From IMG/VR virus record IMGVR_UViG_3300034279_000305, positions 22,962 to 86,961 of that record: a stretch of 64,000 nucleotides of DNA. One strand, written 5' to 3'. Position numbers and translations under genes: made by a program. Position 1 is the first letter of the stretch. Each line of letters opens with the position of its first letter. The stretch comes from a virus. The notes under the pieces are model-generated. The model saw only the letters and a list, made by a program, of their open reading frames with translations, ran no database searches and was not told the origin of the DNA. Of this stretch, positions 15,647 through 63,180 are shown piece by piece.

Positions 15647-15651
15647 AAAAA

Positions 15652-15820: not shown

Positions 15821-15825
15821 TAAAC

Positions 15826-15911: not shown

Positions 15912-15916
15912 AAAAA

Positions 15917-15992
15917 TGGTGCTCCCGAACGGATTCGAACCGCTGACACGTGGTTCTTCAAACCACTGCTCTACCAACTGAGCTACAGGAGC
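15917..15992 (-). tRNA. tRNA-Phe(GAA)
   Basis: Anticodon arm GTGGT-TTGAAGA-ACCAC, canonical D-arm GCTCAGTTGGTAGAGC, T-loop TTCGAAT, CCA encoded. Confidence 0.93.
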
Positions 15993-15998
15993 ATATAA

Positions 15999-16081
15999 TG
16001 GTACGCCTAGAGGGACTCGAACCCCCACGCTTTCGCACTGGTACCTAAAACCAGCGTGTCTACCAATTCCACCATAGGCGC
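15999..16081 (-). tRNA. tRNA-Leu(UAG)
   Basis: Class II: anticodon arm CTGGT-TTTAGGT-ACCAG, variable arm TGCGAAAGCG, T-loop TTCGAGT, acceptor GCGCCTA/TAGGCGT, CCA encoded. Confidence 0.92.
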
Positions 16082-16091
16082 ATAAAAGAGT

Positions 16092-16204
16092 GACCACCTA
16101 AGTGTGCCTTGATTGCTTACTTCGCGACGTTGCAATCTTCCCATGTGAAGAAATATATTGCAAATTATTTCCGCACAACTTCTCGAGGTTCAGCATAGGT
16201 GGTC
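16092..16204 (-). ncRNA. Structured RNA candidate 1 in the tRNA cluster
   Basis: A gene-free 113-nt spacer between tRNA-Leu and tRNA-Ala can fold into a nested structure. P1: 9 bp, 16092-16100 with 16196-16204. P2: 8 bp with one bulge, 16100-16107 with 16173-16181. P3: 7 bp, 16130-16136 with 16157-16163, capped by 4 bp (16137-16140 with 16147-16150) and a 6-nt loop. Strand is inferred from co-directional tRNAs. It recalls the stable RNAs C and D of the T4 tRNA cluster by position only. Confidence 0.55.
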
Positions 16205-16209
16205 TATAT

Positions 16210-16285
16210 TGGTGGAGAATAACGGGATCGAACCGTTCACCTTCTGCGTGCAAGGCAGACGCTCTACCGAATGAGCTAATTCCCC
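16210..16285 (-). tRNA. tRNA-Ala(UGC)
   Basis: Anticodon arm TCTGC-CTTGCAC-GCAGA, T-loop TTCGATC, acceptor GGGGAAT/ATTCTCC, CCA encoded. Confidence 0.92.
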
Positions 16286-16296
16286 GAATCTATAAA

Positions 16297-16449
16297 GCGA
16301 AGTGGGAGGATTCAGTTGTACCTCCATGACCCAGTCAATTACTATCTGTAATCTCGGTCAACGACTCGTTACTGGTTAAGAGGAGTACCACTCCCCGAGT
16401 CTACATTATCCCCACTGACGAGGGGATTATTCAGTCACACTTCTTACGC
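16297..16449 (-). ncRNA. Structured RNA candidate 2, multi-branched
   Basis: No gene lies between tRNA-Ala and the initiator tRNA, but four hairpins sit inside one closing stem. Closing stem: 16297-16304 with 16438-16442 and 16447-16449. Hairpins: 16305-16309/16321-16325; 16327-16331/16356-16360 continued by 16338-16342/16348-16352; 16363-16368/16396-16401 enclosing 16382-16386/16390-16394; 16408-16413/16422-16427. Every arm is 5-6 perfect pairs. No known RNA family is recognised. Strand inferred from neighbours. Confidence 0.5.
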
Positions 16450-16469
16450 CGACCGTCGCCAGCGATATT

Positions 16470-16548
16470 TGGTTGCAGAGGTTGGATTTGAACCAACGAT
16501 TTCCGGCTTATGAGACCAGCGAGGACGACCAGACTCCTCTACTCCGCG
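16470..16548 (-). tRNA. Initiator tRNA-fMet(CAU)
   Basis: Anticodon loop CTCATAA; the first base pair is a C1-A72 mismatch (CGCGGAG...CTCTGCA), the hallmark of bacterial initiators, and the overall sequence closely follows E. coli tRNA-fMet. CCA encoded. Confidence 0.88.
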
Positions 16549-16554
16549 ATAAAC

Positions 16555-16629
16555 TGGCTCCCTAAGATGGATTCGAACCACCGACCAATTGATTAACAGT
16601 CAACTGCGCTACCGCTGCGCCATTAGGGA
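16555..16629 (-). tRNA. tRNA-Asn(GUU)
   Basis: Anticodon arm GTTGA-CTGTTAA-TCAAT, T-loop TTCGAAT, acceptor TCCCTAA/TTAGGGA, discriminator G, CCA encoded. Confidence 0.92.
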
Positions 16630-16636
16630 ATAAGAA

Positions 16637-16712
<76 letters not shown>

Positions 16713-16786
16713 AAAACTTATTTAAAGAACACACTATATGCCTATTGACACGCATCTTAAGCGGGACTCACAATAATGTGCTCATT

Positions 16787-16811
16787 AAATAAGTCTCGAA
16801 AGACTTATTTT
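16787..16811. terminator. Hairpin in tRNA spacer, possible terminator or processing signal
   Basis: AATAAGTCT-CGAA-AGACTTATT is a 9-bp perfect stem with a 4-nt loop, flanked by A/T-rich sequence on both sides. The T-runs are weak, so it could be a bidirectional terminator or an RNA processing hairpin. The rest of the 16713-16908 spacer holds the promoter at 16851-16879 and nothing else I can support. Confidence 0.4.
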
Positions 16812-16850
16812 ATTATAACAATGTCAAAGAGCAGGAACTTTATTTATACA

Positions 16851-16879
16851 TTCTACTACAATTTTTGTAGAAAGTCAAC
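16851..16879 (-). promoter_or_regulatory. Early-type promoter within the tRNA cluster
   Basis: TTGACT (16879-16874), 17 nt, TAGAAT (16856-16851). The spacer contains the palindrome CTACAAAAATTGTAG, a possible operator. A TATAAATA late-type box (16849-16842) follows directly. Would transcribe the downstream half of the tRNA array. Confidence 0.75.
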
Positions 16880-16908
16880 ACTTATTTTCATTTTTACCAA
16901 AATAATTT

Positions 16909-16983
16909 GGTAGGGTCGGTGGGACTCGAACCCACACTGGAGGGATTTTAAGTCCCTTGTCTCTGCCTTTGGACTACGACCCC
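16909..16983 (-). tRNA. tRNA-Leu(UAA), short variable arm
   Basis: Anticodon arm AGGGA-CTTAAAA-TCCCT, T-loop TTCGAGT, acceptor GGGGTCG/CGACCCT, CCA encoded. The anticodon reads UUA, yet the variable loop is only about 5 nt, unlike the long arm of normal bacterial tRNA-Leu. Confidence 0.82.
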
Positions 16984-16984
16984 A

Positions 16985-17062
16985 TGGGGTGGAAGACGGG
17001 ACTCGAACCCGCGACATTCGGCATCACAAGCCGACGCTCTAACCAACTGAGCTACAACCACC
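16985..17062 (-). tRNA. tRNA-His(GUG)
   Basis: Anticodon arm TCGGC-TTGTGAT-GCCGA, extra 5' G and discriminator C as in His tRNAs, T-loop TTCGAGT, CCA encoded. Confidence 0.9.
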
Positions 17063-17063
17063 A

Positions 17064-17152
17064 TGGCGGAACATCAGGGAGTCGAACCCTGTCTACCCTT
17101 TACAGGTAGTACGCATTAGCAGTGCGCTGCATTACCGTCCTGCCCATGTTCC
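17064..17152 (-). tRNA. tRNA-Ser(GCU)
   Basis: Class II: anticodon loop CTGCTAA, long variable arm, T-loop TTCGACT, acceptor GGAACAT/ATGTTCC, CCA encoded. Confidence 0.9.
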
Positions 17153-17157
17153 AAACC

Positions 17158-17235
17158 TGGAGCGCCGAGTCGGATTCGAACCGACGACTGGAAGGATTTG
17201 CAGTCCTTTGCATTTGACCACTCTGCCATCGGCGC
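17158..17235 (-). tRNA. tRNA-Cys(GCA)
   Basis: Anticodon arm AAGGA-CTGCAAA-TCCTT, T-arm GTCGG-TTCGAAT-CCGAC, acceptor GCGCCGA/TCGGCGC, CCA encoded. Confidence 0.92.
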
Positions 17236-17236
17236 T

Positions 17237-17308
17237 TGGTACCAGCAGTAGGTAACGCTCCTACCAAACCAACCTTATGAGAGTCGGTCGGACACTTATC
17301 CTGCTGGC
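17237..17308 (-). tRNA. Degenerate tRNA-like gene with CAU anticodon loop
   Basis: The acceptor pairs perfectly (GCCAGCA/TGCTGGT) with discriminator A and CCA, and the anticodon loop CTCATAA is intact. The D-arm is reduced to GGA-TAAGTG-TCC without the GG pair, and the T-loop is AGCGTTA instead of TTCRANY on a perfect 5-bp stem. Total 72 nt. Either a decaying Met/Ile tRNA or a tRNA-like RNA with another role. Confidence 0.55.
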
Positions 17309-17310
17309 AT

Positions 17311-17386
17311 TGGTGCGTCTAGTAGGCTCCGACCCTACGACCTCACGGTTATCAGCCGTGTGCTCTACCAACTGAGCTATAGACGC
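17311..17386 (-). tRNA. tRNA-Ile(GAU)
   Basis: Anticodon arm CACGG-CTGATAA-CCGTG, D-arm GCTCAGTTGGTAGAGC, CCA encoded. The T-loop GTCGGAG deviates from the usual TTCRANY. Confidence 0.88.
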
Positions 17387-17393
17387 ATTAACT

Positions 17394-17588
17394 CTACTTC
17401 GAATCTGCCTGCGGAGTTACTGCCGCATCTAGAGGTTTTTCTGCTGCTTCTTCTGTTGCATTTGCTGTAGCAAGTGCTTCATCTGCTGCAGGACCAGCAG
17501 CTTCTGCAACTGATGGCGTTTCTGCGCTGGGAGCACATGCTGCTGTAAGTGCTACAACTGCTGCTGCCATAAAAGTCTTGATATTCAT
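17394..17588 (-). CDS. Small lipoprotein inside the tRNA cluster
   Basis: Encodes 64 residues. MNIKTF plus a hydrophobic Ala/Val stretch and the lipobox LTAAC (Cys18) mark a type II signal peptide; the mature part is an Ala/Glu/Pro-rich, acidic low-complexity peptide. GAAGGAAG precedes the ATG. It probably anchors in the outer membrane of the infected cell. Superinfection exclusion or surface masking is a possible role, known for other phage lipoproteins, but unproven. A leader hairpin (17617-17622 with 17633-17638) lies upstream. Confidence 0.7.
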   Translation of the reverse strand: MNIKTFMAAAVVALTAACAPSAETPSVAEAAGPAADEALATANATEEAAEKPLDAAVTPQADSK

Positions 17589-17665
17589 ATTATTACTTCC
17601 TTCGTTAATAGAGTTTGAGAGACTAACCGTGATCTCTCGCGTGCTTATTAAGTAGCAACCCTAAC

Positions 17666-17741
17666 TGGTGGACACTCTGGGGCTTGAACCCAGGACCTAC
17701 AGGTTAAAAGCCCGTTGCTCTACCTACTGAGCTAAGTGTCC
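17666..17741 (-). tRNA. tRNA-Lys(UUU)
   Basis: Anticodon arm ACGGG-CTTTTAA-CCTGT, T-loop TTCAAGC, acceptor GGACACT/AGTGTCC, CCA encoded. Confidence 0.92.
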
Positions 17742-17746
17742 GAAAC

Positions 17747-17822
17747 TGGTAGACCCTGTTGGATTCGAACCAACGACCTGCGGATTAAGAGTCCGATGCT
17801 CTACCGACTGAGCTAAGGGTCC
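17747..17822 (-). tRNA. tRNA-Lys(CUU)
   Basis: Anticodon loop CTCTTAA, T-loop TTCGAAT, acceptor GGACCCT/AGGGTCT, CCA encoded. Similar enough to the neighbouring Lys(UUU) gene to suggest tandem duplication. Confidence 0.9.
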
Positions 17823-17828
17823 ATAAAC

Positions 17829-17904
17829 TGGTAGACGAGGAGGGACTCGAACCCCCAACCAAACCGTTATGAGCGGTCGGCTCTAACCATTGAGCTACTC
17901 GTCT
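17829..17904 (-). tRNA. tRNA-Met or tRNA-Ile(CAU)
   Basis: Anticodon arm GACCG-CTCATAA-CGGTT, D-arm GCTCAATGGTTAGAGC, acceptor AGACGAG/CTCGTCT, CCA encoded. Elongator Met versus lysidine-modified Ile cannot be separated by eye. Confidence 0.88.
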
Positions 17905-18103
17905 AGATGTAGATTCGATGCTCGAAATCCGGATTCACATGAGCGCCAACTACTTGACGCACGATGTAATAATAATCGATGAACCGATCACCGTCACGAG
18001 TATACACACCATGGGCATTCCGTGCTTCATCTTCCGACGCATACACGCCAAGGAGCACAGAACCTGCCATATCGAACTCACCTAGTAATGCAAAAACTTC
18101 CAT
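17903..18103 (-). CDS. Small phage protein of unknown function
   Basis: Encodes 66 residues with a beta-alpha-beta feel: EVFALLGEF, then VYASEDEARNAHGVY, then YYYIVRQVVGAHV. No family is recognised. It has its own early-type promoter (18131-18159) with the shared AAGGAAAT leader, and its stop lies at the 5' end of the tRNA-CAU gene, so this promoter likely also feeds the tRNAs downstream. Confidence 0.65.
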   Translation of the reverse strand: MEVFALLGEFDMAGSVLLGVYASEDEARNAHGVYTRDGDRFIDYYYIVRQVVGAHVNPDFEHRIYI

Positions 18104-18130
18104 AACAATTTCCTTTCAAACTATACACAC

Positions 18131-18159
18131 AGTATACCCCAGATTTAAGAAAAAGTCAA
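18131..18159 (-). promoter_or_regulatory. Early-type promoter with shared leader
   Basis: TTGACT (18159-18154), 17 nt, TATACT (18136-18131), followed by a GTTTGAAAGGAAATTG leader like those at 7.5 and 60.7 kb. Confidence 0.8.
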
Positions 18160-18191
18160 GCCCCTATTTTGCATTTTATCAAATTATTTTT

Positions 18192-18268
18192 TGGTGACCC
18201 CTACGGGATTCGAACCCGTGATCTTCGCCGTGAAAGGGCGATGTCCTAGACCGCTAGACGAAGGGGCC
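18192..18268 (-). tRNA. tRNA-Glu(UUC)
   Basis: Anticodon arm TCGCC-CTTTCAC-GGCGA, T-loop TTCGAAT, acceptor GGCCCCT/AGGGGTC, CCA encoded. Confidence 0.92.
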
Positions 18269-18270
18269 AA

Positions 18271-18359
<89 letters not shown>

Positions 18360-18365
18360 TAAACG

Positions 18366-18602
18366 TTAGAGACCAATCGCGGTACGATATGTCTCTAGAA
18401 TCATATCTTCTTCTTGCCGAATATGCGCTTCCTTTTTACGGAGACGAATAATCTGGCGAGTCGCTTTAGCATCGTAACCTTCGCCTTTCAACTCAGAATA
18501 GACTTCCTTACGATCTGCCTTCCTAGCATCAAGATCCGCTTCGATATTTTCGATGCGCTCGATGAAGAGGCGATACTTATCAACTGCAATAATGTCACTC
18601 AT
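18366..18602 (-). CDS. GapR/DUF2312-family DNA-binding protein
   Basis: Encodes 78 residues, the full family length. YRLFIERIENIEADL, DRKEVYSELKGEGYD, KATRQIIRLRKKE and RQEEDMILETYRTAIGL follow the DUF2312/GapR pattern throughout: a helical, coiled-coil protein that in Caulobacter clamps overtwisted AT-rich DNA and aids replication and transcription. The family is characteristic of alphaproteobacteria, making it the best host clue here. It sits between tRNA-Gln and tRNA-Ser genes. A role on phage DNA or in competing with host GapR is an inference. Confidence 0.85.
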   Translation of the reverse strand: MSDIIAVDKYRLFIERIENIEADLDARKADRKEVYSELKGEGYDAKATRQIIRLRKKEAHIRQEEDMILETYRTAIGL

Positions 18603-18619
18603 AATATTCTCCTACAAAA

Positions 18620-18695
18620 TGGATGCCCCGTCAGGTCTCGAACCTGAACTCTTCTGAATCAAAATCAGACGTGTTGCCAATTACACCACGGGGCA
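18620..18695 (-). tRNA. tRNA-Gln(UUG)
   Basis: Anticodon arm TCTGA-TTTTGAT-TCAGA, T-loop TTCGAGA, acceptor TGCCCCG/CGGGGCA, discriminator T, CCA encoded. First gene of the array. Confidence 0.9.
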
Positions 18696-24668: not shown

Positions 24669-25643
24669 TTATGCTGCCACACCCCAAACATCATCCCACT
24701 TGCCTGATAGTGCACCCTTGGCATAGTCGGTAGCACGATTTTCAAAGAAGTTGGTGTGTGTTGGTGCGTTGATCATTTCCTCGACCCAAGGCAGAGGATT
24801 TTTCTTAATCTTAAAGATACCCTTGAGACCGAGACTAATTAGTCGACGGTCACAAATATAACGGATATACTTCTTTACATCTGCAGATGTGAGATCTTGC
24901 ATCTCACCCATCTCGAATGAAAGATCAATAAACTTATCTTCCAGTTCTACCATTTTCTCGGCGATGGTATAGATACTGGACTTCAATTCATCGTTCCAGA
25001 GTTCGCGATTTTCCTCGACATAAGTGCGGAACAACTTGATCATCGACTCAGCATGCATCGTCTCATCAACGATTGACCAAGTAACAATCTGTCCCATTCC
25101 CTTCATCTTTCCGTGACGAGGGAAGTTGAGGAGCATAATGAAGGATGAGAACAGTTGCATACCCTCAGTGAATGCACTAAATGCAGCGATATTGGTCGCG
25201 ACCGATTCAGGTGTTCCATTTGCATTCGACAAATCCGTAAAGTAGTCGTGCTTTGCTCGCATTGAGTCGTATTCAAGGAATTCTTGATATGTCGTTTCTG
25301 GCATACCCAGAGTTTCAATAAGGTGAGAATACGCTGCAACATGTAGTGCCTCCCTTGCCGCAAATCCCATCAACATCATACGAATTTCAGGTTGAGGGAA
25401 ATACGGTAGATAGTTCTTCACATAACCGCCAGCAACATCGATGTCACCCTGTGTGAAGAAGCGGAAAATGTTAGTCAGAAAGTGTTTTTCACCATCGGTA
25501 AGACGCTTCTTCCAGTCTTGCACGTCTTCGACCATTGGCACCTCAGTATGCAACCAATGTGACTGCTCATGCTTTAACCAAGCATCATACGCCCAAGGAT
25601 AGTTGAACGGTTTGAAATACGATCTTTCACTCATTAATGTCAT
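24669..25643 (-). CDS. nrdB: Ribonucleotide reductase class Ia, beta subunit
   Basis: Encodes 324 residues of the R2 subunit that holds the diiron-tyrosyl radical. Visible iron ligands include the Glu and EALH-type motifs (AAREALHVAAYSH) and IVDETMHAESM; the C-terminal residues form the R1-binding tail. It works with NrdA (26.0-27.8 kb) to make deoxynucleotides. The start overlaps the preceding small gene by ATGA. Confidence 0.93.
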   Translation of the reverse strand: MTLMSERSYFKPFNYPWAYDAWLKHEQSHWLHTEVPMVEDVQDWKKRLTDGEKHFLTNIFRFFTQGDIDVAGGYVKNYLPYFPQPEIRMMLMGFAAREALHVAAYSHLIETLGMPETTYQEFLEYDSMRAKHDYFTDLSNANGTPESVATNIAAFSAFTEGMQLFSSFIMLLNFPRHGKMKGMGQIVTWSIVDETMHAESMIKLFRTYVEENRELWNDELKSSIYTIAEKMVELEDKFIDLSFEMGEMQDLTSADVKKYIRYICDRRLISLGLKGIFKIKKNPLPWVEEMINAPTHTNFFENRATDYAKGALSGKWDDVWGVAA

Positions 25644-26037: not shown

Positions 26038-27840
26038 TTATCCTTCGCATGCAACACAGGTGTCACCTTCGATCATTGCTTTGAAGTCGAGTTCTTTAAT
26101 TACTTCTCGTTCAATACGCTTTGATACCTTATCTGCCTTACCAATCTTCTCGGAACGGCAATAGTATAGAGTCTTCAAACCTTGCTTCCATGCAAGATAA
26201 TGGACTGCATGAATATATTTGATATTTGCATCAGGACGGAAGAATAGATTGAGGGACTGTGCCTGATCAATAAACTTCTGTCTGTCTGCTGCATGTTCAA
26301 TAACCCAACGCTGATCGATTTCCATCGAGGTTTTGTAGACACTCTTAGTAATATCGTCCATCCATGTAAGGTGCTGCACCGAACCATCGTTGGCGATAAT
26401 CGAGGACCAAACCTCGTCATACCAACCAGCAGGTCTGCCGAATGCCGCTTCTTCTAGAATAATCGCGTCAAGATATTTATTCTTATTCAAAAATGAACCC
26501 GATAGTGTATCTTGACGATATGCATTTGCTCGCCATGGTTCAATCGACGGACTAGTATTACCCATGATGATTGACGACGATGCGTTTGGAGCAATTGCCT
26601 GCATATGTGAGAAACGACGACCAGTGCCAGCAGCATCAGGTGCTTCGCCACGCTCTGTTCCAAGTTCTAGATTCGCAGTATCTAGACGATTCTTGATTAG
26701 TTTGAACATTCGCATGTTCGTTCCCTTAGCGACTGCCGACTCCCACGCAATACCCTTGCGCTGAAGATAAGCATGGAAACCTAGTGCACCGATACCAATA
26801 GAACGTTCGCGCTTTGCTGAATAGATCGCACGAGCAACCTGCTTCGGAGCATTGTCAATAAAGTATTGTAACACGTTATCTAGCATTTCCGCCATGTCCT
26901 TGAGGAACAACGGATCTTTCGACCATGCATCATAGTATTCTAGATTAACGGACGAGAGGCAGCAAACCGCAGTACGCTTCCTATCCGTTGGAAGAATGAT
27001 TTCTGAACAGAGATTTGACTGATGAATCTTTAGACCAAGATCCTTCTGGAACTGCGGCATTGCACGATTAGACGTATCAATAAAGTGTAGGTATGGTTCA
27101 CCTGTCATCATACGAAGTTCGAGAATCTTCTGCCAAAGTTCCTTCGCTGAAACTGTGTCGCGGATTTCACCCGATTTCGGATCGGTAAGGTTCCAACTGT
27201 CGTCGGCATCCTTGTCCGTCATACAACGCTCAACGATTTCCATAAACGCATCCGAGATGTTGATCCCATGGTGCAGGTTCAGTGCACGCATGTTGGGATC
27301 ACCCGTCGGTTTGCGCATCTCTAGAAATAACCCAACATCAGGGTGAGAAATATCCAGATAAGCAGCATAAGAACCACGACGAGTGCGACCTTGACGGTAA
27401 GCCATACTAGAAGCATCATAAGTGCGAAGGTGAGGCATAACGCCAGTAGACTTATCATCTGCGGCGCGAATGCCAAAACCAATACCAACGCCGCCACCAA
27501 GCATAGACAACCAGTTAGTTTCTGAAAGATTTTCAACTAGACCCTCCGCAGTATCGTCAATGAAGTTTAGAAAACATGAGATTGGCATACCACGCTTCGA
27601 CCGACCAAACGAGAGGATCGGAGTGGCATATGACAACCAGTGCTTTGACGCATATTCGTATAGACGCTGCGCATGTTCAGGATTAGAACCGAACGTCTTT
27701 GAAACAAAAGCGAACCGATGTTGTGGAGACGTTTCGTCGTCCTTCATATATGATTCTTGAAGTCGCTGAATACCTAGTTTGTCAAACAGGGAGTCCCGTG
27801 ATAGGTCAATTTCAATATCCAGATAATTCTCTCTTGCCAT
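26038..27840 (-). CDS. nrdA: Ribonucleotide reductase class Ia, alpha subunit (no ATP-cone)
   Basis: Encodes 600 residues (T4 NrdA is 754). GGGVGIGF, NLCSEI, CCLSSVNLEYY and MGNTSPSIEPW are active-site and barrel signatures; the C-terminal CVACEG carries the shuttle Cys pair that takes electrons from glutaredoxin. The N-terminus starts directly in the catalytic fold, so the ATP-cone that senses ATP/dATP is missing, suggesting loss of dATP shut-off. Confidence 0.93.
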   Translation of the reverse strand: MARENYLDIEIDLSRDSLFDKLGIQRLQESYMKDDETSPQHRFAFVSKTFGSNPEHAQRLYEYASKHWLSYATPILSFGRSKRGMPISCFLNFIDDTAEGLVENLSETNWLSMLGGGVGIGFGIRAADDKSTGVMPHLRTYDASSMAYRQGRTRRGSYAAYLDISHPDVGLFLEMRKPTGDPNMRALNLHHGINISDAFMEIVERCMTDKDADDSWNLTDPKSGEIRDTVSAKELWQKILELRMMTGEPYLHFIDTSNRAMPQFQKDLGLKIHQSNLCSEIILPTDRKRTAVCCLSSVNLEYYDAWSKDPLFLKDMAEMLDNVLQYFIDNAPKQVARAIYSAKRERSIGIGALGFHAYLQRKGIAWESAVAKGTNMRMFKLIKNRLDTANLELGTERGEAPDAAGTGRRFSHMQAIAPNASSSIIMGNTSPSIEPWRANAYRQDTLSGSFLNKNKYLDAIILEEAAFGRPAGWYDEVWSSIIANDGSVQHLTWMDDITKSVYKTSMEIDQRWVIEHAADRQKFIDQAQSLNLFFRPDANIKYIHAVHYLAWKQGLKTLYYCRSEKIGKADKVSKRIEREVIKELDFKAMIEGDTCVACEG

Positions 27841-49264: not shown

Positions 49265-50131
49265 TCAATTTACTTTCTTCGCATTTATTTCTTCGCGTGA
49301 CAATTGTCGATGTGGTATATTGATTACAGGCAGCGCATCACCAAACCCCTTACAGAATCTACAGGCATTTATGTTAATTTTTTCACTGTTAATTGCCTCG
49401 GTATACTTCTCAGTAAACTGCTCGTCGATTGATATACCATCTAGTTCTTTCAGATCATATGGTAACGGAACACCGATTGCTTTATAATATCCTGGTCGAT
49501 GAATACTTACTGCACACCGATAGTATTTTCCACCAAAGAACGTGGAATAATAGGTTTTTCCGGAACAAGAAGTATATACTGCTTGTGCGGTGTCTTCGTC
49601 TAGTTCTTCGAATTGATCTAGTACACGAAATTGCTCGCCTATTACGAGATCTACATTTTGTCGATCTATTACAACTTGGTCTTTTTTCCAAGCACTCATA
49701 CTTTTTGGATGGTTAATAACGTTGTTAAAGTTCCATCGTTTTCCTCGCTCGTCTAAATAGTTAAGAATTTTGTCATAGTTTATGTTCACATTTTCATATT
49801 TACTAATGCTAACAATATCACAATTATCATAAAACTCATCTGACAAAGACAATAGGTTTATTCCATTGGTTACGATGGCAGTAACATCACAAAAATTACT
49901 CTGCTTTGCATATTTCAAATATTCTGTAATATCTGGATTAAGTGTTGGTTCGCCACCAATAAAACGCAAAACACCAACATGCATGTACTGCGAAAGATTG
50001 TCCATATCTCGTTTAAAACTTTCAAGATCAAAAGATTCTTCGTCGCGGTATGGCGATCCAGTACTGCAGTTCGCACATTTTAAATTACAATGAAAACTTA
50101 TATAGTATTCAATAGATGGAAGATTAATCAT
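49265..50131 (-). CDS. Radical SAM enzyme within the replication module
   Basis: Encodes 288 residues. C15-N-L-K-C19-A-N-C22 is the 4Fe-4S motif, GGEPTLNPDI follows as the second signature (SAM ribose site), and CRFCKGFGD near the C-terminus could bind a second cluster. Inserted between the small zinc-protein gene after uvsX and gp41, ahead of gp41 in the same direction. Substrate unknown. Confidence 0.85.
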   Translation of the reverse strand: MINLPSIEYYISFHCNLKCANCSTGSPYRDEESFDLESFKRDMDNLSQYMHVGVLRFIGGEPTLNPDITEYLKYAKQSNFCDVTAIVTNGINLLSLSDEFYDNCDIVSISKYENVNINYDKILNYLDERGKRWNFNNVINHPKSMSAWKKDQVVIDRQNVDLVIGEQFRVLDQFEELDEDTAQAVYTSCSGKTYYSTFFGGKYYRCAVSIHRPGYYKAIGVPLPYDLKELDGISIDEQFTEKYTEAINSEKININACRFCKGFGDALPVINIPHRQLSREEINAKKVN

Positions 50132-55511: not shown

Positions 55512-55931
55512 TTAATTTCTTTTTGCGCCAATATTATATTTTTGAACCAGTTCCCACTCGCCCTTTTCTTTATAGGCGATAATCTTAATCTGATTTAGTG
55601 GTGCACAATTTTCGTGCAGTTCTGGATTCTTAATATCTATTAGACCCCAGTCACCGAGCAACTTGGCAATAGTATTTCTACGTTCTAAATCATTGTCACT
55701 AAAGTCAGCACCCTTACCATCTAAGGCAAAGAGTTCCTTGAAGTGAACAATAAAGTATCTGCTCTGTTTGTGGAGGATATGGCAGGACTGGAAAAGAGTC
55801 TTTTCCTTGCGTGATGCTACCCCAATACGAGAAAGAGTTTCTCGCACCTTTAGAAAGTCGTCGGGATTCTTGAGGGTTACTTCTAAGGGTGCATACCCTG
55901 GAAAGTCGATATCAAAAAAATCATCAGTCAT
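55512..55931 (-). CDS. regA: RegA translational repressor
   Basis: Encodes 139 residues (T4 RegA is 122). APLEVTLKNPDDFLKVRETLSRIGVA, FQSCHILHKQSRYFIVHFKELFALDG, RRNTIAKLLGDWGLI and WELVQKYNIG closely match T4 RegA. It binds ribosome sites on early mRNAs to shut off their translation. Order regA-62-44 is as in T4. Confidence 0.9.
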   Translation of the reverse strand: MTDDFFDIDFPGYAPLEVTLKNPDDFLKVRETLSRIGVASRKEKTLFQSCHILHKQSRYFIVHFKELFALDGKGADFSDNDLERRNTIAKLLGDWGLIDIKNPELHENCAPLNQIKIIAYKEKGEWELVQKYNIGAKRN

Positions 55932-56383
55932 TTGTTGCCACCTTTATTCAATTTCTCTTTTATGTATTGTTTTTGTTCTTCAGAGAGAATTGAGAGTGCT
56001 TGGCGTGCTTTTTCATTGCTATAACCATAATACTCTTTGATCAACTCTACATCAGCATTCTTTTCGGACTTCAACCATGGATTCCATCGGTTTTTCGCCC
56101 TTATAGTATTTATAAGAAATGCATTTTGGAGAGCATGAGCTAGGTGAGGACGGCAATTGACCTCATTCGCTTGAACGATGGTTTCTCGATCTAGCGAAAG
56201 TGCTCGATTAATGATATATGGGGTGTATTGTTTTTCTGATCGTTCGTCTACAATGAGATTCTTTTGTTGATTGATGTTCTTGACAAATTCAAATGGACTT
56301 ATCTTAGTTATCTTCTCAACATAATCTTCTGCAGTGTAAATCTTAGTAGGTTCACCCAAACCTTCTAGGATTGCTTCCTTCAT
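55928..56383 (-). CDS. 62: Clamp loader small subunit gp62
   Basis: Encodes 151 residues from ATG 56383 (ATGA overlap with gene 44). Helical protein with SPFEFVKNINQQKNLIVDE, YIINRALSLDRETI and NEVNCRPHLAHALQNAFLINTIRAKNR blocks of T4-like gp62. With gp44 it loads gp45 onto DNA. The start at 56389 (GTG) is less likely. Confidence 0.88.
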   Translation of the reverse strand: MKEAILEGLGEPTKIYTAEDYVEKITKISPFEFVKNINQQKNLIVDERSEKQYTPYIINRALSLDRETIVQANEVNCRPHLAHALQNAFLINTIRAKNRWNPWLKSEKNADVELIKEYYGYSNEKARQALSILSEEQKQYIKEKLNKGGNK

Positions 56384-57315
56384 TTCCACACCGCAGTCGC
56401 CATAATGTCAGTCAAACACGCAACCAGATTGATTTCCTGATCGACTGCAAATGCTGCCTTGTATTGATAGTCAGCGAGAAGAAGAATGATGGCAGGAATA
56501 TTTTTAAATTCATCAAGATAACTGTCATAGATCTTACGAATGATTGCATTAGGATCACTATCCATATTTTCTACAACCCATGCACGCATCTTCGTCCAAT
56601 CCTTGCCTTGAAGATAAGTCAAAAGACTCTTCATATCAAGATCACGACTGGTATTAAGAACACCCTCGTCAATAGTGCCGCCGACACTATACCGCTGCAG
56701 TTCGTTTAAAACACGGCGATAGTCAGGGAAGTGCTTCTTGAGAACATGAGCGACCACCTTCTCATCGAAGGTGACATTTTCTCCACGAAGAATGTCAGTC
56801 AATCGTTTCATGAACCGACCTGCCATTTTCGGACGGTCTGCCTTGGTAAGTTTAAATTCGATGACTGCACAACGACTATGCAGAGGAGAGATAATCTTAT
56901 CCTTGAAATTACAAGTAAAGATAAACCGACAGTTGTTTGAATATTGCTCAATAAACGCACGAAGCGCAGGTTGAGTTGAATTTGGATTGAGGTAATCTGC
57001 CTCATCAAGAATTACGATCTTGGGTTTACCATTAAATGAAACCGACGCAGCAAACTCTGTAATCTTGACACGCAGAGTTTCAATATTTCTATCGTCAGAA
57101 CCGTTGATGATGATGTAATCGCACCCAAGTTCTTCACAGACTGCTCGAGCGATGGTAGTCTTACCAACACCCGCAGTACCACAAAGAAGCATGTTAGGAA
57201 TTTCACCAGACTCAACAAACTGGCGGAAGGTGTTCAATTGTGCATCTGGAAGGATACAGTCGTCCAATTTACGAGGACGATACTTTTCAACCCAAAGGAA
57301 TTGTTCATTGCTCAT
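56380..57315 (-). CDS. 44: Clamp loader ATPase gp44
   Basis: Encodes 311 residues from ATG 57315, which has GGAG upstream. QFLWVEKYRPRKLDDCI start motif, CGTAGVGKTT Walker A near 45-54, VILDEADYL Walker B, FTCNFKDKIISPLHSRC with the SRC arginine-finger motif. AAA+ protein of the T4 clamp loader. A stem-loop (57338-57384) lies upstream. Confidence 0.93.
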   Translation of the reverse strand: MSNEQFLWVEKYRPRKLDDCILPDAQLNTFRQFVESGEIPNMLLCGTAGVGKTTIARAVCEELGCDYIIINGSDDRNIETLRVKITEFAASVSFNGKPKIVILDEADYLNPNSTQPALRAFIEQYSNNCRFIFTCNFKDKIISPLHSRCAVIEFKLTKADRPKMAGRFMKRLTDILRGENVTFDEKVVAHVLKKHFPDYRRVLNELQRYSVGGTIDEGVLNTSRDLDMKSLLTYLQGKDWTKMRAWVVENMDSDPNAIIRKIYDSYLDEFKNIPAIILLLADYQYKAAFAVDQEINLVACLTDIMATAVWK

Positions 57316-57337
57316 AATAATCTCCATAATAAAAGGT

Positions 57338-57384
57338 GGGTGATGCCTCATCGATGACGCTCTTCGCAGCAGCAGACATCACCC
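57338..57384 (-). other. Stem-loop upstream of gene 44
   Basis: GGGTGATG (57384-57377) and CATCACCC (57345-57338) form an 8-bp stem around 31 nt, then ACCTTTTATT. Could be a weak terminator after the peroxiredoxin gene or a leader element of gene 44. Confidence 0.45.
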
Positions 57385-57398: not shown

Positions 57399-57938
57399 TT
57401 AACTATTCGTTTGCAACCAATGCAAGATAGTGTATGGATCAGTCTCGCCATACGGATCAGTCTCGCAGTTATCTTCCTTCCCAGGTTCGATAAACCACTT
57501 CTCGATCTTACCATTATCTACAACAACTGCATACCGCCAAGAACGAATGCCAAAACCAAGATTGTCCTTATAAACTTCCATGTTCATACCAGAAGTAAAC
57601 TCTGCAGAACCATCAGGGATAACCTTAACATGCTCTAGTTTCTGATCCTTCGCCCAACAATTCATAACGAATGAATCGTTGACTGACAGGCAGTAGATAT
57701 CGTCAATACCATGAGAGTAGAAACGCATCGCCAGTTCTTCGAATCCAGGAAGTTGCATTGTCGAACAAGTAGGCGTAAATGCTCCAGGAAGCGAGAATAG
57801 GATGACACGTTTACCCGCGAAAAGATCGAACGATGTCACATCCTCCCAACGATAAGGATTCAAATCCTCAATAGTATCATCACGAACACGAGTCTTGAAG
57901 ACTACACTCGGAACAACTGTCGGTAGATTATCAACCAT
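57399..57938 (-). CDS. Prx5-type peroxiredoxin
   Basis: Encodes 179 residues from ATG 57938. ILFSLPGAFTPTCST is the peroxidatic Cys motif (PxxxTxxC); LSVNDSFVMNCWAKD and a FGIRSWRY segment follow the Prx5 pattern. It reduces peroxides, perhaps protecting the cell during infection together with Dps. Start chosen from GGAG spacing and overlap with the preceding stop. Confidence 0.88.
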   Translation of the reverse strand: MVDNLPTVVPSVVFKTRVRDDTIEDLNPYRWEDVTSFDLFAGKRVILFSLPGAFTPTCSTMQLPGFEELAMRFYSHGIDDIYCLSVNDSFVMNCWAKDQKLEHVKVIPDGSAEFTSGMNMEVYKDNLGFGIRSWRYAVVVDNGKIEKWFIEPGKEDNCETDPYGETDPYTILHWLQTNS

Positions 57939-58104
57939 TAACATTCTCCACTTGAGCATCCCAATCATTGACAATCAGGAATTTATTAAACTGACGAATG
58001 ACTTCTTCAACACTACTTGTAGTGAATTCGATAGACATTGCACGACCATCTACATCATTGTCATACGGAATTCGTGCACTAAATGTAATTTCTAACTTAT
58101 CCAT
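57931..58104 (-). CDS. 57-residue phage protein between clamp and peroxiredoxin
   Basis: A short frame from ATG 58104 to TGA 57931, with AAGGATAC upstream. LEITFSARIPYDNDVDGRAM then FTTSSVEEVIRQFNKFL looks like a small alpha/beta protein. Its TGA overlaps the peroxiredoxin ATG. No family recognised. Confidence 0.6.
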   Translation of the reverse strand: MDKLEITFSARIPYDNDVDGRAMSIEFTTSSVEEVIRQFNKFLIVNDWDAQVENVNG

Positions 58105-58114: not shown

Positions 58115-58774
58115 TTATACGACCGACGAAGGTTCCATCGCCAACCAGTATTCCAACTTCTTGGTCAGGTTGTTAAAGTGCATTGCCTTCTTCTTTCCGA
58201 GTGTTACCTCATAGTCATCAGCAATAACCTTCAGGTTCTCGACCTTCAGACGACAATCAAAGTCACCATCTGCGTTATTGTCTAGTTCGCGACGGAATGC
58301 ATTTGCACGAGGATTAGCAGGGTCGCTAACAGTCAGAGTCACCTTACCGCCCTTTGAGACAACGCTCATGGTCGGAGCAGAAAGAATGGATGCTGCCTTC
58401 TGGACCATGCCAATCTCAGCAGCAGTCATCTTGAAGGTGAAGAACGGATCAATCTCGAGTGACTTATAGGGAGCAGCGGTAACTACTGATGGGTCAGCAT
58501 AACCATACTCGAATTCCGACTTGTCCTTACGCAAGAACATACTCGACTGTTCAAACTCGATATCTTGTTCGTCCCAGATGCTGAGAAGAGCAAGGAGGTT
58601 GGGCAAATCATACACTGCGAATTCGCGAGGGAATGATTCGGAGACAGTGGCAAGAGTCAGAATGTTCTTACCTTCACTCACGGTCGCAAGAACTGAACCC
58701 TCGCGAACGACAATGTTCGTATTAATCGAGGCAAAGTTCTTTAGAACGGCGAGAGTTTCATTTGAGATCTTCAT
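58115..58774 (-). CDS. 45: Sliding clamp gp45
   Basis: Encodes 219 residues (T4 gp45 is 228). MKISNETLAVLKNFASIN start, FPREFAVYDLPNLLALLSIW, and a C-terminal HFNNLTKKLEYWLAME are conserved. It is the trimeric processivity clamp and in T4 also activates late promoters. Promoter at 58839-58867. Confidence 0.93.
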   Translation of the reverse strand: MKISNETLAVLKNFASINTNIVVREGSVLATVSEGKNILTLATVSESFPREFAVYDLPNLLALLSIWDEQDIEFEQSSMFLRKDKSEFEYGYADPSVVTAAPYKSLEIDPFFTFKMTAAEIGMVQKAASILSAPTMSVVSKGGKVTLTVSDPANPRANAFRRELDNNADGDFDCRLKVENLKVIADDYEVTLGKKKAMHFNNLTKKLEYWLAMEPSSVV

Positions 58775-58780: not shown

Positions 58781-59227
58781 TTAATCCTTAGTAGTCAGAG
58801 AGGTTTTAAGACGTGGTAAAGTAATAGTACCACCATCAGTTATACTATCATTATTGAAGAAAGTCAAGGTATTTGTTGCACTTCCCATGGTAGTAAATGA
58901 TTCAGTATCGGTGTTTAGAACAAAAGTATTTTCGTCGAAATCATCTTCGACTCCAACTTCTTCATCATGCACATGTAATGCAATGATTGCGTAATGAATG
59001 ACCTTCATGAGATCCTTACGCCAGTCTTCAGGTGTTCCCTTGTGACCATAACGTTGAGCATACTTTAAAATATTCCCAACAGTAAATCCAATACCATGAC
59101 CACCGTCGATAATAAACTCGGTCGCCTGATATTGGTTTTGTGCGTAATGTCCATCATATGTGGAATCTACGTAGTCGGTGATCTCCCGTAGGAGATCACC
59201 CTCATTATATCTGTATTCAATTGTCAT
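58781..59227 (-). CDS. DUF3310-like nucleotide-kinase-related phage protein
   Basis: Encodes 148 residues. QYQATEFIIDGGHGIGFTVGNILKYAQRYGHKGTPEDWRKDLMKVIHYAI follows the DUF3310/SaV-like pattern. The C-terminal 50 residues are low-complexity and overlap the gp45 promoter, so they may be under regulatory rather than protein-level constraint. Confidence 0.7.
   Translation of the reverse strand: MTIEYRYNEGDLLREITDYVDSTYDGHYAQNQYQATEFIIDGGHGIGFTVGNILKYAQRYGHKGTPEDWRKDLMKVIHYAIIALHVHDEEVGVEDDFDENTFVLNTDTESFTTMGSATNTLTFFNNDSITDGGTITLPRLKTSLTTKD
58839..58867 (-). promoter_or_regulatory. Promoter of gene 45, TTGACT-17-TATAAC
   Basis: TTGACT (58867-58862), 17 nt, TATAAC (58844-58839), inside the 3' end of the DUF3310-like gene. 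Confidence 0.78.
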
Positions 59228-59236: not shown

Positions 59237-60388
59237 TTAGAATGGGACTTCTTCAGTCATTTGGTTAAAATATGCATCTTCATTCACACCATCATCTGGC
59301 ACTGCATCAACGTCGACTTTCTTATAGAGGTCGAGGAATGCTGCCTTGGTATCGGCATCGAAGCGATTAACGCAAAGTTCGATTGCCTTGCTGCGTGAAT
59401 TAAACATCGCGTAAGCATTGACGATGTGCTCAAGACGACGAGTAGAAACCAGTTCGTCGACGCCACCGTCGTAGAAAGTCTTACGGATGATTTCCGCCCA
59501 CGTGGTCAGTTTATCGGCGAATTCTTCGTCGACCTTTCCTGCCTTCTCCATCTTGTTCAGCACGATCTTCTTTTCGATCTTGGCGGAAGGATATTCCTGC
59601 TCAACGGTGATGGCGAAACGCTCAAGGAAAGCATCGTCGAGGATTTGGGCAGACATAAACTTGCCATCGTCAGAACCACGACCCTTGGTGTTGGCAGTGG
59701 CGATAACGTTGAACCCTGCCTTGGGAAAGATAGTTTCACCAGTCTTCTTATTGAAGTAAGGTTTGCCCTCAAGGATTGCTTGAAGACACATCATCTTGTT
59801 CGAACCACGGTCGATTTCGTCGAGGATGAGGATAGCACCACGCTTCATGGCGGTCAGGACTGGACCTTCGCGGTAAACAACGTTACCGTCGATCAGGGTG
59901 TTACCACCGATCAGATCGTCTTCATCGGTTTCAATCGAGATATTGACACGAAGGCATTCGCGCTTCAACTTGGCACATGCCTGTTCAATCATCGTGGTCT
60001 TACCGTTACCAGAAAGACCAGAGACGAACGTCGGATAGAACACACCAGCGTTCAAGATCTTGATTAGATCTTTATAAAAACCGAATGGAACGTAAGTCGT
60101 GTCAGCAGCAGGAACGAGGTTCTCAATAAGAACTTCCAACTTAGGAGCGATAACAATCTTCGCTGCTTCGCGAACTGGCATCGGGGTAACGTTGCCTACC
60201 ATCAGAGGAGACAGGTTATACTTACCACGACCGATACGGTGTTCGGTCATGTTCAACAACCAGAAGGGAACCTTCTGACCAAGGTCACGGGCAGCGGCAA
60301 CGATTTCCTTCTTAAGGAAAACACCGTTCTTGGTGTTGTTGGCGGAGAGTTTTTCAAGCAGTGCTTCACGGTTCATAATCATATTCAT
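59237..60388 (-). CDS. MoxR/CobS-like AAA+ ATPase
   Basis: Encodes about 383 residues; several in-frame ATGs (60391, 60388, 60382, 60376) lie behind GTGAGG. GLSGNGKTTMIEQACAK is Walker A near 130, ILILDEIDRG Walker B, FNVIATANTKGRG sensor 1. MoxR/CobS ATPases pair with VWA proteins to remodel or metallate targets. The matching VWA protein is next upstream (60861-63122). Confidence 0.87.
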   Translation of the reverse strand: MNMIMNREALLEKLSANNTKNGVFLKKEIVAAARDLGQKVPFWLLNMTEHRIGRGKYNLSPLMVGNVTPMPVREAAKIVIAPKLEVLIENLVPAADTTYVPFGFYKDLIKILNAGVFYPTFVSGLSGNGKTTMIEQACAKLKRECLRVNISIETDEDDLIGGNTLIDGNVVYREGPVLTAMKRGAILILDEIDRGSNKMMCLQAILEGKPYFNKKTGETIFPKAGFNVIATANTKGRGSDDGKFMSAQILDDAFLERFAITVEQEYPSAKIEKKIVLNKMEKAGKVDEEFADKLTTWAEIIRKTFYDGGVDELVSTRRLEHIVNAYAMFNSRSKAIELCVNRFDADTKAAFLDLYKKVDVDAVPDDGVNEDAYFNQMTEEVPF

Positions 60389-60415
60389 CATCCTCACATC
60401 ATCATAATATAATAC

Positions 60416-60444
60416 ATTCTACCGCAAAACGCAGCAGAAGTCAA
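60416..60444 (-). promoter_or_regulatory. Promoter of the MoxR-like gene, TTGACT-17-TAGAAT
   Basis: TTGACT (60444-60439), 17 nt, TAGAAT (60421-60416), directly upstream of the ATPase gene. Confidence 0.8.
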
Positions 60445-60451
60445 CAGTTTT

Positions 60452-60646
60452 TTAAGAAATAATCAACTCACGCGACTCAACTAGTTCATGAGAACCGTCA
60501 TTGCAGAAGTCATAATATTCAACGGTTTCATTGCGAAGAAGCATAAACCCAGCACCATTGGGATATACAGCACGAAGGACACCATTTTCATCACGCGACC
60601 ACGAGCAGAGGACGAGAGTTTCAAGTTCAGAGGGGAAATCAACCAT
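60452..60646 (-). CDS. Small conserved phage protein
   Basis: Encodes 64 residues: FPSELETLVLCSWSRDENGVLRAVYP, then MLLRNETVEYYDFCND. Beta-rich, no known family. Preceded by AAGGAA and a shared-leader promoter, so an independently expressed early gene. Confidence 0.6.
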   Translation of the reverse strand: MVDFPSELETLVLCSWSRDENGVLRAVYPNGAGFMLLRNETVEYYDFCNDGSHELVESRELIIS

Positions 60647-60677
60647 AATAAAATTTTCCTTTTCAAATTATATACAC

Positions 60678-60706
60678 AGTATACCCCAAAAACGAGATAA
60701 AGTCAA
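60678..60706 (-). promoter_or_regulatory. Early-type promoter with shared leader
   Basis: TTGACT (60706-60701), 17 nt, TATACT (60683-60678), then a leader with TTTGAAAAGGAAAA like those at 7.5 and 18.1 kb. The -35 overlaps the TGA of the 52-residue membrane peptide. Confidence 0.8.
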
Positions 60707-60861
60707 GCCCTATTCTTGCGATATATGTAAAAAAGATACAAGATTATCCACAGCGGCCATAGCGAAAGCGCAATCAAAAACATTGCACCCAATACATAAA
60801 ATGCAATAACCAAAACTGTCAACAAACCAATCAATTCTAACACAGACCATCTCCCTATCAT
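60703..60861 (-). CDS. 52-residue two-TM membrane peptide
   Basis: A short frame from ATG 60861 (TAATG overlap with the CobT-like stop) to TGA 60703. Two hydrophobic helices span about residues 7-30 and 32-48, ending in a basic YRKNRA tail. The coupling suggests it is made with the CobT-like protein; function unknown. Confidence 0.6.
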   Translation of the reverse strand: MIGRWSVLELIGLLTVLVIAFYVLGAMFLIALSLWPLWIILYLFYIYRKNRA

Positions 60862-63122
60862 TATGCTACTGCCCGAATCATTTTGGTAAGCAGAACACGG
60901 TTTGCTTGCTTTCCGTTCTGCATCTTTTTGAATGCTTGGAAGATTTGCTTCGTATTCTCACTATCAACCTGCAAAGTATCAGCGCCAATCTGAAGGTTCT
61001 TGCCACCTGGAACGAGGAAGCGATTGTGGAACCCACCGTGGTTGTCGAGAGTGAACACACGGTCCTTGACCCATTCTGTCTTCCACTTGGCATCGAAATT
61101 GAAGTCATCACCGAGCATACGACGAGCAGTATGCTTTTCGCTGTATCCTACGATGAAGAAATTGATCACTCGCGAACCAGTCACCTGACCGTAGAGTTCG
61201 AGCAATGCCTTCGAGTAGGCAGAGCGCATACCCTTATCGCGGTCATACTTCACAGTAACCGACTTACGAGTCTTAGCATCTTCAATAGTCAGATTGCTAT
61301 TGCCGTAGTAGTTATAGGTATTGGTGTTAAAGTTATTGTCACCGTCACCATCAGTCAAGAACACGGTCGACAGAACTTCGAGACGATGCTTCGAGCGGAA
61401 CTGTTCAGCAATCGAGCGAGCAACGATAACTGATTCCTCGAGAGGAGTCGAACCAAGACCGAAGTGATCAGGATACCTGTAAATCAGATTTTTATAACTA
61501 CCATACGAACGACGATTTTCATATGCATGACCAAGATGCAGCAACTTTTTTACAGCATTATTAAACTGTGCACTAGAGCAACTCCCGTCGAGGAACTGAT
61601 ACAAGAAGAAATTTGAATCAGCAATCTGGATATCGTTCTTGTTTTCACCAGTGGTAATTTCACGATGTTCACGATTGTGCGCAGGGAATGCAGACTTAGC
61701 AAACTGGTTATTGATGAAACCGTAAACTTCCAACGGGATACGAACCTTACGGCAGAACATTGCCAGCGTAACCATCTGCTCAATCGTGCCTTTCATGTTC
61801 ATGTCCATAGAACCAGACATGTCGAGGAACATAAGCATGCCATGGTTCTTACCGTTAGGCATAATGGTGTGACGAGCGAACAAATCTTCGCTGATCTTAT
61901 GTGCCCACAAACGATCAGTGTCAAGACGACCAGTCTTAGCAACAGTCGCACGAGCAAACTCAGATGCCTTACGACGCATTTCGAATTCTTGAACCATCAG
62001 ATTGATATACTTTTGGTTGTTCGCACGAAATTCGTTGTAAACCTTAGTTGCATCAGTTTCAGAATTGACAGTGTTGTAACCATCACGAACAGTAATCTTG
62101 ATGCTATCAATCACCCGTTTCATTGGAATAATATAGTCAGAAGGTTTTACGATCGTCAGGTTGCCATAGACATATGGACGCGACTTATCATCGACCAGTT
62201 CGTCTTCACGATTGCGGAAGTGTTCGTCGGTTTCAGCGATAGGATTTTCGTTGTAATAAGGTTCTTCTTGAAACCCCTTTGAACCATCTGGTTCGCGCGA
62301 ATCATATTCTTGATCGTCGCCATTTTCACCAGATTCATCTTCATCAGTTTCAGAGGTGGTGTTCTCATTGTCAGTTTCGTCAGTCATTCCACCCGATTGA
62401 CCTTCGCCATCTTGCGTGTCATCGGTTTCTTCCGACTCATCATCAGACTGACCATCAGAGGTTTCGGAAGGAGCAGAGGAAGATGAGTCCATGTCGAATT
62501 CATCACCCATCATACCACCGAGTTGATCCATCAACTCATCAAAGGCAGTTTCTTCGGGAGTCTGTTCAGTCTTAGCGAGACCGTAGAGTTCGGTTGCCAA
62601 CGCCGAAACTTCTTCCCAAGTTTCTAGAACGTCGATGCGGCGCAGGATTGCCTTCTCATCTTCCGAGAACTGAATGTTCAGGAAAGCACCAACCTTGTAA
62701 TAAAGGTTGACACGGTCGATGAAGCGAAGTGTATCGAGGTCGCGACCCTCTACGCCGAAGAAGTTACGCTCAAAGAGTTCCTTGTAACCAGCGTAGAAGT
62801 TCTTGCGAATTCCAGGATACTTGTCCTTAACCTTACGCTCAATACGAGCATCTTCGAGAATGTTTAGGAACGACTTGATACCGTTACCACCGTCAGTGAT
62901 GGCATCGTGCCATCCCGCAGCAGGAGTGTAGAGAGCATGACCGATTTCGTGACCGATAAGCAGGTCATAGAGGTCAGCAGACATTTCCTTCCAGATAGGA
63001 AGGATCAACGCACGGTCTTGAAGGTTGAACGCTGCGGTTGCAACCTTCTGGTGCTCAATGCGGATATTCTCGGAAGCAAGCAACTTAGCGAGAATGGACT
63101 TTTCAGAGTTAGAAACGGACAT
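60861..63122 (-). CDS. CobT-like protein: HExxH metallopeptidase domain plus VWA domain
   Basis: Encodes 753 residues from ATG 63122. H58-E-I-G-H62 in LIGHEIGHALYTP is a zinc-peptidase motif in the N-terminal domain. Residues about 205-300 are a long acidic Asp/Glu/Ser/Thr linker, as in CobT. The C-terminal VWA domain has LMFLDMSGSMDMN (MIDAS DxSxS) near 430. With the MoxR-like ATPase it forms a putative AAA+/VWA machine; a phage role is unknown. Confidence 0.85.
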   Translation of the reverse strand: MSVSNSEKSILAKLLASENIRIEHQKVATAAFNLQDRALILPIWKEMSADLYDLLIGHEIGHALYTPAAGWHDAITDGGNGIKSFLNILEDARIERKVKDKYPGIRKNFYAGYKELFERNFFGVEGRDLDTLRFIDRVNLYYKVGAFLNIQFSEDEKAILRRIDVLETWEEVSALATELYGLAKTEQTPEETAFDELMDQLGGMMGDEFDMDSSSSAPSETSDGQSDDESEETDDTQDGEGQSGGMTDETDNENTTSETDEDESGENGDDQEYDSREPDGSKGFQEEPYYNENPIAETDEHFRNREDELVDDKSRPYVYGNLTIVKPSDYIIPMKRVIDSIKITVRDGYNTVNSETDATKVYNEFRANNQKYINLMVQEFEMRRKASEFARATVAKTGRLDTDRLWAHKISEDLFARHTIMPNGKNHGMLMFLDMSGSMDMNMKGTIEQMVTLAMFCRKVRIPLEVYGFINNQFAKSAFPAHNREHREITTGENKNDIQIADSNFFLYQFLDGSCSSAQFNNAVKKLLHLGHAYENRRSYGSYKNLIYRYPDHFGLGSTPLEESVIVARSIAEQFRSKHRLEVLSTVFLTDGDGDNNFNTNTYNYYGNSNLTIEDAKTRKSVTVKYDRDKGMRSAYSKALLELYGQVTGSRVINFFIVGYSEKHTARRMLGDDFNFDAKWKTEWVKDRVFTLDNHGGFHNRFLVPGGKNLQIGADTLQVDSENTKQIFQAFKKMQNGKQANRVLLTKMIRAVA

Positions 63123-63151: not shown

Positions 63152-63180
63152 ATTCTACCCCAAAATGAGATAAAAGTCAA
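63152..63180 (-). promoter_or_regulatory. Promoter of the CobT-like gene, TTGACT-17-TAGAAT
   Basis: TTGACT (63180-63175), 17 nt, TAGAAT (63157-63152), 30 nt before the ATG. Confidence 0.8.

Follow-up and report, generated by a model that had tools for sequence, protein, structure and literature searches.

In nearly every marine T4-like cyanophage, cobS is presumed to be a vitamin B12 auxiliary metabolic gene and serves as a community marker, although what it does during infection has been described as unknown (PMC9983427). We analyzed a relative of this gene, encoding a MoxR/CobS-type AAA+ (ATPases associated with diverse cellular activities) protein, together with its neighbor, encoding a protein with a von Willebrand factor A (VWA) domain, in a 64,000-nucleotide stretch of viral DNA (the window; positions 22,962 to 86,961 of the 86,961-base IMG/VR virus record IMGVR_UViG_3300034279_000305). 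The core cobS (phrog_249) and "peptidase" (phrog_459) genes of P-HM2, S-MS29, and HTVC008M belong to the same two families as this pair and occur in the same order, on the same strand, and at the same position between gp46/47 and gp45/44; identity to cyanophage/HTVC008M-type homologues is 27-35% for the VWA partner and ~50% for the ATPase. Unlike the cyanophage core pair, the pair studied here is in a record that lacks psbA, and its two genes are separated by a spacer with its own promoter. A pair from group 2.2 jumbo phages (ASV44729.1/ASV44728.2) has, by description, the same architecture, consisting of a MoxR ATPase and a vWA protein with an N-terminal metallopeptidase domain, and was proposed to act in virion assembly (PMC7824862), whereas the promoters and neighborhood found here favor replication or recombination.

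CobS and CobT of the aerobic cobaltochelatase have a homologous AAA+ domain and a homologous N-domain/linker/VWA architecture, respectively. However, CobT lacks the HExxH motif of the phage protein, and the phage pair falls below the curated CobS and CobT cut-offs, with no CobN found. Conjugative elements (IncC pMG252; pPHE24) encode an AAA-DUF3150-VWA cluster with the same HExxH...EDxRIE VWA protein and a MoxR-type ATPase; the extra DUF3150 gene was not found in the phage records searched, where the search controls were also unmatched. NorQ-NorD and CbbQ-CbbO, which function in the activation of nitric oxide reductase and Rubisco, respectively, likewise combine an AAA+ protein with a VWA partner, and one of the best fold matches reported below is to the VWA domain of NorD. 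The pair and its architecture have already been described (PMC7824862; PMC8651126), in two published readings that contradict each other; new in this work are contrasts that separate the competing readings. We hold, with moderate confidence, that the pair is a MoxR-VWA protein-remodelling machine with a gluzincin-like N-terminal domain that serves DNA replication or recombination.

The two genes and their motifs lie in the window as follows (MIDAS, metal ion-dependent adhesion site; pLDDT, predicted local distance difference test):

60861..63122, minus strand: VWA protein with N-terminal gluzincin-like domain, 753 amino acids; alternative GTG start at 63125
62937..62951, minus strand: HEIGH (HExxH), residues 58-62 of the VWA protein, inside predicted helix 49-65
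62838..62855, minus strand: EDARIE, residues 90-95, proposed third (Glu) zinc ligand, inside predicted helix 81-101
62223..62552, minus strand: acidic low-complexity linker, residues ~191-300, net charge -39; pLDDT mostly <50 over 200-290
61809..61823, minus strand: MIDAS motif DMSGS, residues 434-438; D434, S436, and S438 invariant in the alignment
59237..60388, minus strand: MoxR/CobS-type AAA+ ATPase, 383-386 amino acids; start between 60388 and 60397
59996..60019, minus strand: Walker A motif GLSGNGKT of the ATPase; glycines and lysine invariant in the alignment

Residues of the VWA protein are numbered from ATG 63122, which is the likely start of its gene, as is ATG ~60388 for the ATPase gene, rather than the GTG codons. 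Both open reading frames (ORFs) were recovered on the minus strand where the initial annotation of this DNA had placed a MoxR/CobS-like ATPase adjoining a VWA protein. The ATPase matches Pfam AAA_5 (8.7e-17) and phrog_249 (2e-106), the family annotated as cyanophage cobS, and its matches among PDB sequences are midasin, CobS (1e-37), CbbQ, and NorQ. The VWA partner matches phrog_459 over its whole length (E 1e-182), and profile searches with it returned no Pfam or NCBIfam family above cut-off. The pairing of the two genes is obligate. In each of the 100 loci with the ATPase (100 of 100), the VWA gene is followed by the ATPase gene on the same strand, usually no more than a few hundred bases away, and cyanophage records among annotated phages are equal in number for both genes (365, 61, and 24). 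Together, the AAA_5 match, the DMSGS motif, the predicted VWA fold, and this adjacency place the genes among MoxR-VWA pairs. ATPase matches in Staphylococcus and Listeria phages had no adjoining VWA or peptidase annotation.

The HExxH motif in the VWA partner and in CobT

H58, E59, H62, E90, D91, and R93 are invariant in an alignment of seven diverse phage homologues. A larger conservation sample was drawn via the ATPase only, so that HExxH itself was not used as a query, and HExxH and EDxRI were present in 48 of 48 complete partners at loci reached in this way. HExxH is kept by distant partners encoded by IncC pMG252, pPHE24, Salmonella phage SSU5, Escherichia phage Cyrano, and a Rhizobium phage. 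By contrast, an N-domain HExxH was found in 0 of 32 true CobT proteins, all of which score over the NCBIfam cut-off; a single chance HEPAH string in this set falls within the upstream extension of one ORF. The equivalent region of CobT, where printable, reads ...HHDxxxH... and retains an EQxRxE motif. In profile comparisons, the phage proteins matched plasmid-type proteins (E 1e-29), with HExxH aligned on HExxH, and the plasmid-type proteins matched CobT over the whole length (E 1e-34). This chain from phage to plasmid to CobT implies that the phage VWA protein is a true CobT relative and that CobT is the exception. Family members from phages and conjugative elements normally have HExxH, and it is classical CobT that deviates; the initial annotation was correct that the intact motif is uncommon in classical CobT, but the motif is no oddity of this phage. 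Loss of the site in CobT, rather than its never having been present, would be the parsimonious account of these unrooted comparisons.

Several candidate explanations were rejected along the way. HExxH is not a chance string, given its invariance, nor is it peculiar to this phage, as it is family-wide, and bias from a search pattern is ruled out by the loci collected through the ATPase alone. The bacterial relatives are not NorD or CbbO, as shown by their gene context, in which they cluster with DUF3150 and with genes for recombination, an arrangement seen in conjugative elements. Distant phage CobT-like proteins, when aligned jointly, were too divergent for the alignment to serve as a search query.

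In both the sequence and the structural model, the HExxH helix is followed by a Glu on a second helix, as in gluzincins. The N-domain model (195 amino acids; alignment of 70 sequences) had a pLDDT of 88 and a predicted template modelling score of 0.84; alignments for the models contained no rows from the annotated-phage collection. The top 12 Foldseek matches of this domain in PDB are all metallopeptidases or ArdC (jannalysin, selecase, abylysin, ArdC, and M61), each with an E-value of at least 0.2, and jannalysin matched with a probability of 1.00 despite such an E-value. Minigluzincins lead the list, and the minigluzincins jannalysin, selecase, and abylysin have the HExxH-plus-Glu arrangement in common. 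A PDB sequence search with the N-domain returned no matches. These models suggest a weak resemblance of the N-terminal domain to minigluzincin metallopeptidases. The full-length model is weaker (pLDDT 75, with a disordered linker); for its C-terminal part, the matches are to VWA domains, among them that of NorD in NorQD complexes and the MIDAS domain of midasin.

The question of a vitamin B12 role

One published reading treats the pair as a viral CobST, which would replace or boost the host cobaltochelatase together with host CobN and give more cobalamin during infection, and regards the "peptidase" annotation of cyanophage cobT as a mistake (PMC8651126). The homology behind this proposal is genuine, both for the ATPase (CobS model TIGR01650, E 2e-22) and, through the plasmid-type intermediates, for the full length of the VWA partner; moreover, cyanobacterial hosts possess CobN, which we found in a Prochlorococcus genome assembly that contains the pair. 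However, the scores stay below the curated cut-offs, at 79.8 of 558.55 bits for the ATPase against TIGR01650 and 11.9 of 759 bits for the VWA partner against the CobT model TIGR01651 (Pfam CobT, E 0.18), and CobT does not have the HExxH that is conserved among the phages. No CobN (PF02514) was found in seven records of this phage type, namely the 87-kb record, a near relative of 150 kb, and five cultured phages that carry the pair. The phage also encodes a class I ribonucleotide reductase (large subunit, 26038-27840; small subunit, 24669-25643), and enzymes of this class need no B12.

The distribution of relatives argues in the same direction. Phages of E. coli and Salmonella have them, as do IncC plasmids, and matches were found in 2,306 plasmid records, of which 1,918 are predicted to be conjugative, many of these matches being partial and HExxH having been read in two plasmids only. 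Yet CobN, detected in 5 of 14 control genomes, was not detected in the E. coli control, and it is absent from a Morganella genome bearing a relative. Because the CobS and CobT cut-offs are not reached, CobN is lacking, the reductase is of class I, and relatives occur in the CobN-less E. coli context, a B12 role for the pair is unlikely, and we regard the specific CobST proposal as quite improbable, although it could still apply in cyanobacterial hosts. The initial annotation had likewise seen no other cobalamin gene and preferred an ATP-driven machine to cobalamin synthesis. The first point agrees with the absence of CobN from the record and its 150-kb relative, other B12 genes not having been searched one by one, and the second is supported by this analysis. 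The photosystem gene family PF00124 is also absent from the record and the 150-kb near relative, unlike cyanophage S-MS29, and given this absence the phage host may not be a cyanobacterium.

Promoters and gene neighborhood

The promoter copies at the pair, the small ORFs between its genes, and the adjoining replication genes are as follows:

63152..63180, minus strand: promoter TTGACTT-N14-GGTAGAAT of the VWA gene, 27 bases before GTG 63125 and 30 before ATG 63122
60416..60444, minus strand: exact copy of the promoter motif TTGACTT-N14-GGTAKAMT, ATPase gene
60678..60706, minus strand: exact copy of the same motif, small ORF 60452-60646
60703..60861, minus strand: hydrophobic ORF, 52 amino acids, probable membrane protein as judged from sequence only; its start overlaps the VWA stop codon (TAATGA)
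60452-60646, minus strand: small ORF between the pair, 64 amino acids, with its own exact promoter copy
58781..59227, minus strand: DUF3310/phrog_480 small protein, neighbor
58115..58774, minus strand: gp45-type sliding clamp, neighbor (phrog_223, 3e-61)
56380-57351, minus strand: clamp loader gp44, neighbor
55928-56389, minus strand: clamp loader gp62, neighbor

The motif TTGACTT-N14-GGTAKAMT occurs at 21 sites in the window compared to 0.57 expected, a number reached in no shuffle, and 20 of the 21 are on the minus strand (sites include 334, 7514, 7886, 18131, 22555, 53917, and 63584). Exact copies stand 19-30 bases 5' of the VWA and ATPase start codons, in keeping, as a statement about sequence, with the earlier view that each gene has its own strong promoter. 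Weaker copies precede the primase, DNA polymerase, and sliding clamp genes. The T4-type late box TATAAATA is modestly enriched (9 versus 2.7 expected) and lies within ~30 bases of the starts at 38348, 41608, and 45263, in a structural-looking region; in the window scan, it was not found before the ATPase-VWA pair. The promoter pattern points to early rather than late expression of the pair. As for the gap between the genes, the 52-amino-acid hydrophobic ORF occupies part of it, and the gap is too short for this ORF in most distant relatives; the 64-amino-acid ORF had no match in a PHROG search.

Downstream of the pair, the window encodes gp45, gp44, gp62, regA, UvsX, and gp43 polymerase, and this T4-type neighborhood, with the family matches over full length, identifies the genes as a phrog_459/phrog_249 pair of the T4-like kind. 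In cyanophages, as in Pelagibacter phage HTVC008M and Ochrobactrum phage OC, the pair is flanked by gp46/47 on one side and gp45/44 on the other. Among viral loci with 5 kb of room, gp45 is downstream on the same strand within ~4 kb in 35 of 40, and at least one of gp44, gp45, gp46, and gp47 is near the pair in 43 of 46. Unrelated contexts are weightier evidence for a link to replication or recombination than such counts among related phages. DNA ligase and PolIII alpha genes are beside the pair in SSU5, Cyrano, and Rhizobium and Pseudomonas phages, primase and polymerase genes in Vibrio phage ICP2, ssb, bet, and exo are near it in IncC, and RecT and YqaJ genes in one bacterial locus.

These data bear on the second published reading, in which the pair assembles or matures virion parts and its peptidase domain trims structural proteins, as proposed for the group 2.2 jumbo phages (PMC7824862). 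Tail assembly of Acidianus two-tailed virus requires a MoxR-VWA pair, a precedent cited in that paper, and the very strong conservation of the pair would be compatible with a core phage function. But the promoters are of the early type that polymerase and primase genes also have and differ from the late TATAAATA of structural-region genes, the pair is situated among replication genes, and the same HExxH protein is encoded on conjugative plasmids, which do not produce virions. The promoters and plasmid relatives weaken this reading for this phage, and we consider it doubtful.

Early-type promoters would also suit a protease for counter-defence or host takeover that takes apart or cuts defence or nucleoid proteins of the host in the early phase of infection, as would the presence of the pair in phages and conjugative elements alike and the weak fold match of the N-domain to the antirestriction protein ArdC. 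Counter-defence genes are usually patchy in distribution, whereas the pair is a near-invariant core of cyanophages; no target is known, and the pair matched no PADLOC family, although PADLOC models are mainly of defence rather than counter-defence. We therefore judge this role unlikely as well.

Three other features of the window were recorded. A peroxiredoxin gene (phrog_2281; 57399-57974, minus strand) lies within the replication cluster, with the clamp loader on one side and the sliding clamp on the other. Two radical-SAM domain proteins are encoded at 9849-11483 and 49265-50131 (minus strand), one of them adjoining a DnaB-like helicase gene. A cluster of 22 tRNA genes at 14814-18695 (minus strand) covers most amino acids, and a 23rd, tRNA-Arg, is at 47170.

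A candidate machine for proteins on phage DNA

In the protein-remodelling machine that we favor, the AAA+ protein would assemble into a MoxR/CobS-type ATPase ring, on which the VWA partner may dock via its C-terminal VWA/MIDAS domain, by analogy with NorD on NorQ. The N-terminus of the partner would form a gluzincin-like domain, a putative zinc peptidase, on a long acidic tether. ATP hydrolysis would drive the pulling or remodelling of client proteins, which the N-terminal domain would bind or clip. Because the pair is within the replication gene cluster and has early-type promoters, we infer that the most likely clients are proteins bound to phage DNA or belonging to the replication or recombination complex. 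Of the two activities suggested by the initial annotation, metallation found no support, and proteolysis is plausible but unproven; our confidence in proteolysis is lower than in the overall reading.

Several observations weigh against this interpretation. The Foldseek E-values of the N-domain are individually not significant. Pseudomonas phage phiK7B1 retains the pair, but HExxH is replaced by DSEISK and the Glu motif is degraded (3358-5442), and the Vibrio phage ICP2 partner has lost the Glu; proteolysis therefore cannot be essential in every member, and, as phiK7B1 illustrates, the core function may not depend on the peptidase site. The T4-type neighborhood mostly reflects shared descent, so that 35 of 40 loci are not 35 independent events. 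Finally, deletions of bet, exo, s067, s068, and s070 in SXT reduced transfer by no more than 10-fold (PMC2791158). From the gene order that SXT and IncA/C have in common, we infer that some of s067, s068, and s070 are the ATPase and VWA genes, and a cost of this size implies that their role in conjugative elements is non-essential.

A broader proposal is that phages and conjugative elements share a widespread AAA+/VWA/zinc-peptidase machine that removes or trims the proteins on DNA undergoing replication or recombination, with classical CobT as a descendant in which the active site was lost. We offer this proposal tentatively, as one that may well prove wrong; as part of it, the machine would be a mobile-element counterpart, by analogy, of the eukaryotic AAA-assisted proteases that act on DNA-protein crosslinks. 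The question of function is directly testable because of the contrasts reported here, namely HExxH in 48 of 48 partners versus 0 of 32 CobT proteins, the class I ribonucleotide reductase, the CobN-less hosts of relatives, the early-type promoters, and the independent replication and recombination contexts. If the pair does form a machine that clears proteins from DNA, then "cobS", as the name of a B12 auxiliary metabolic gene of marine cyanophages, would be a misnomer.

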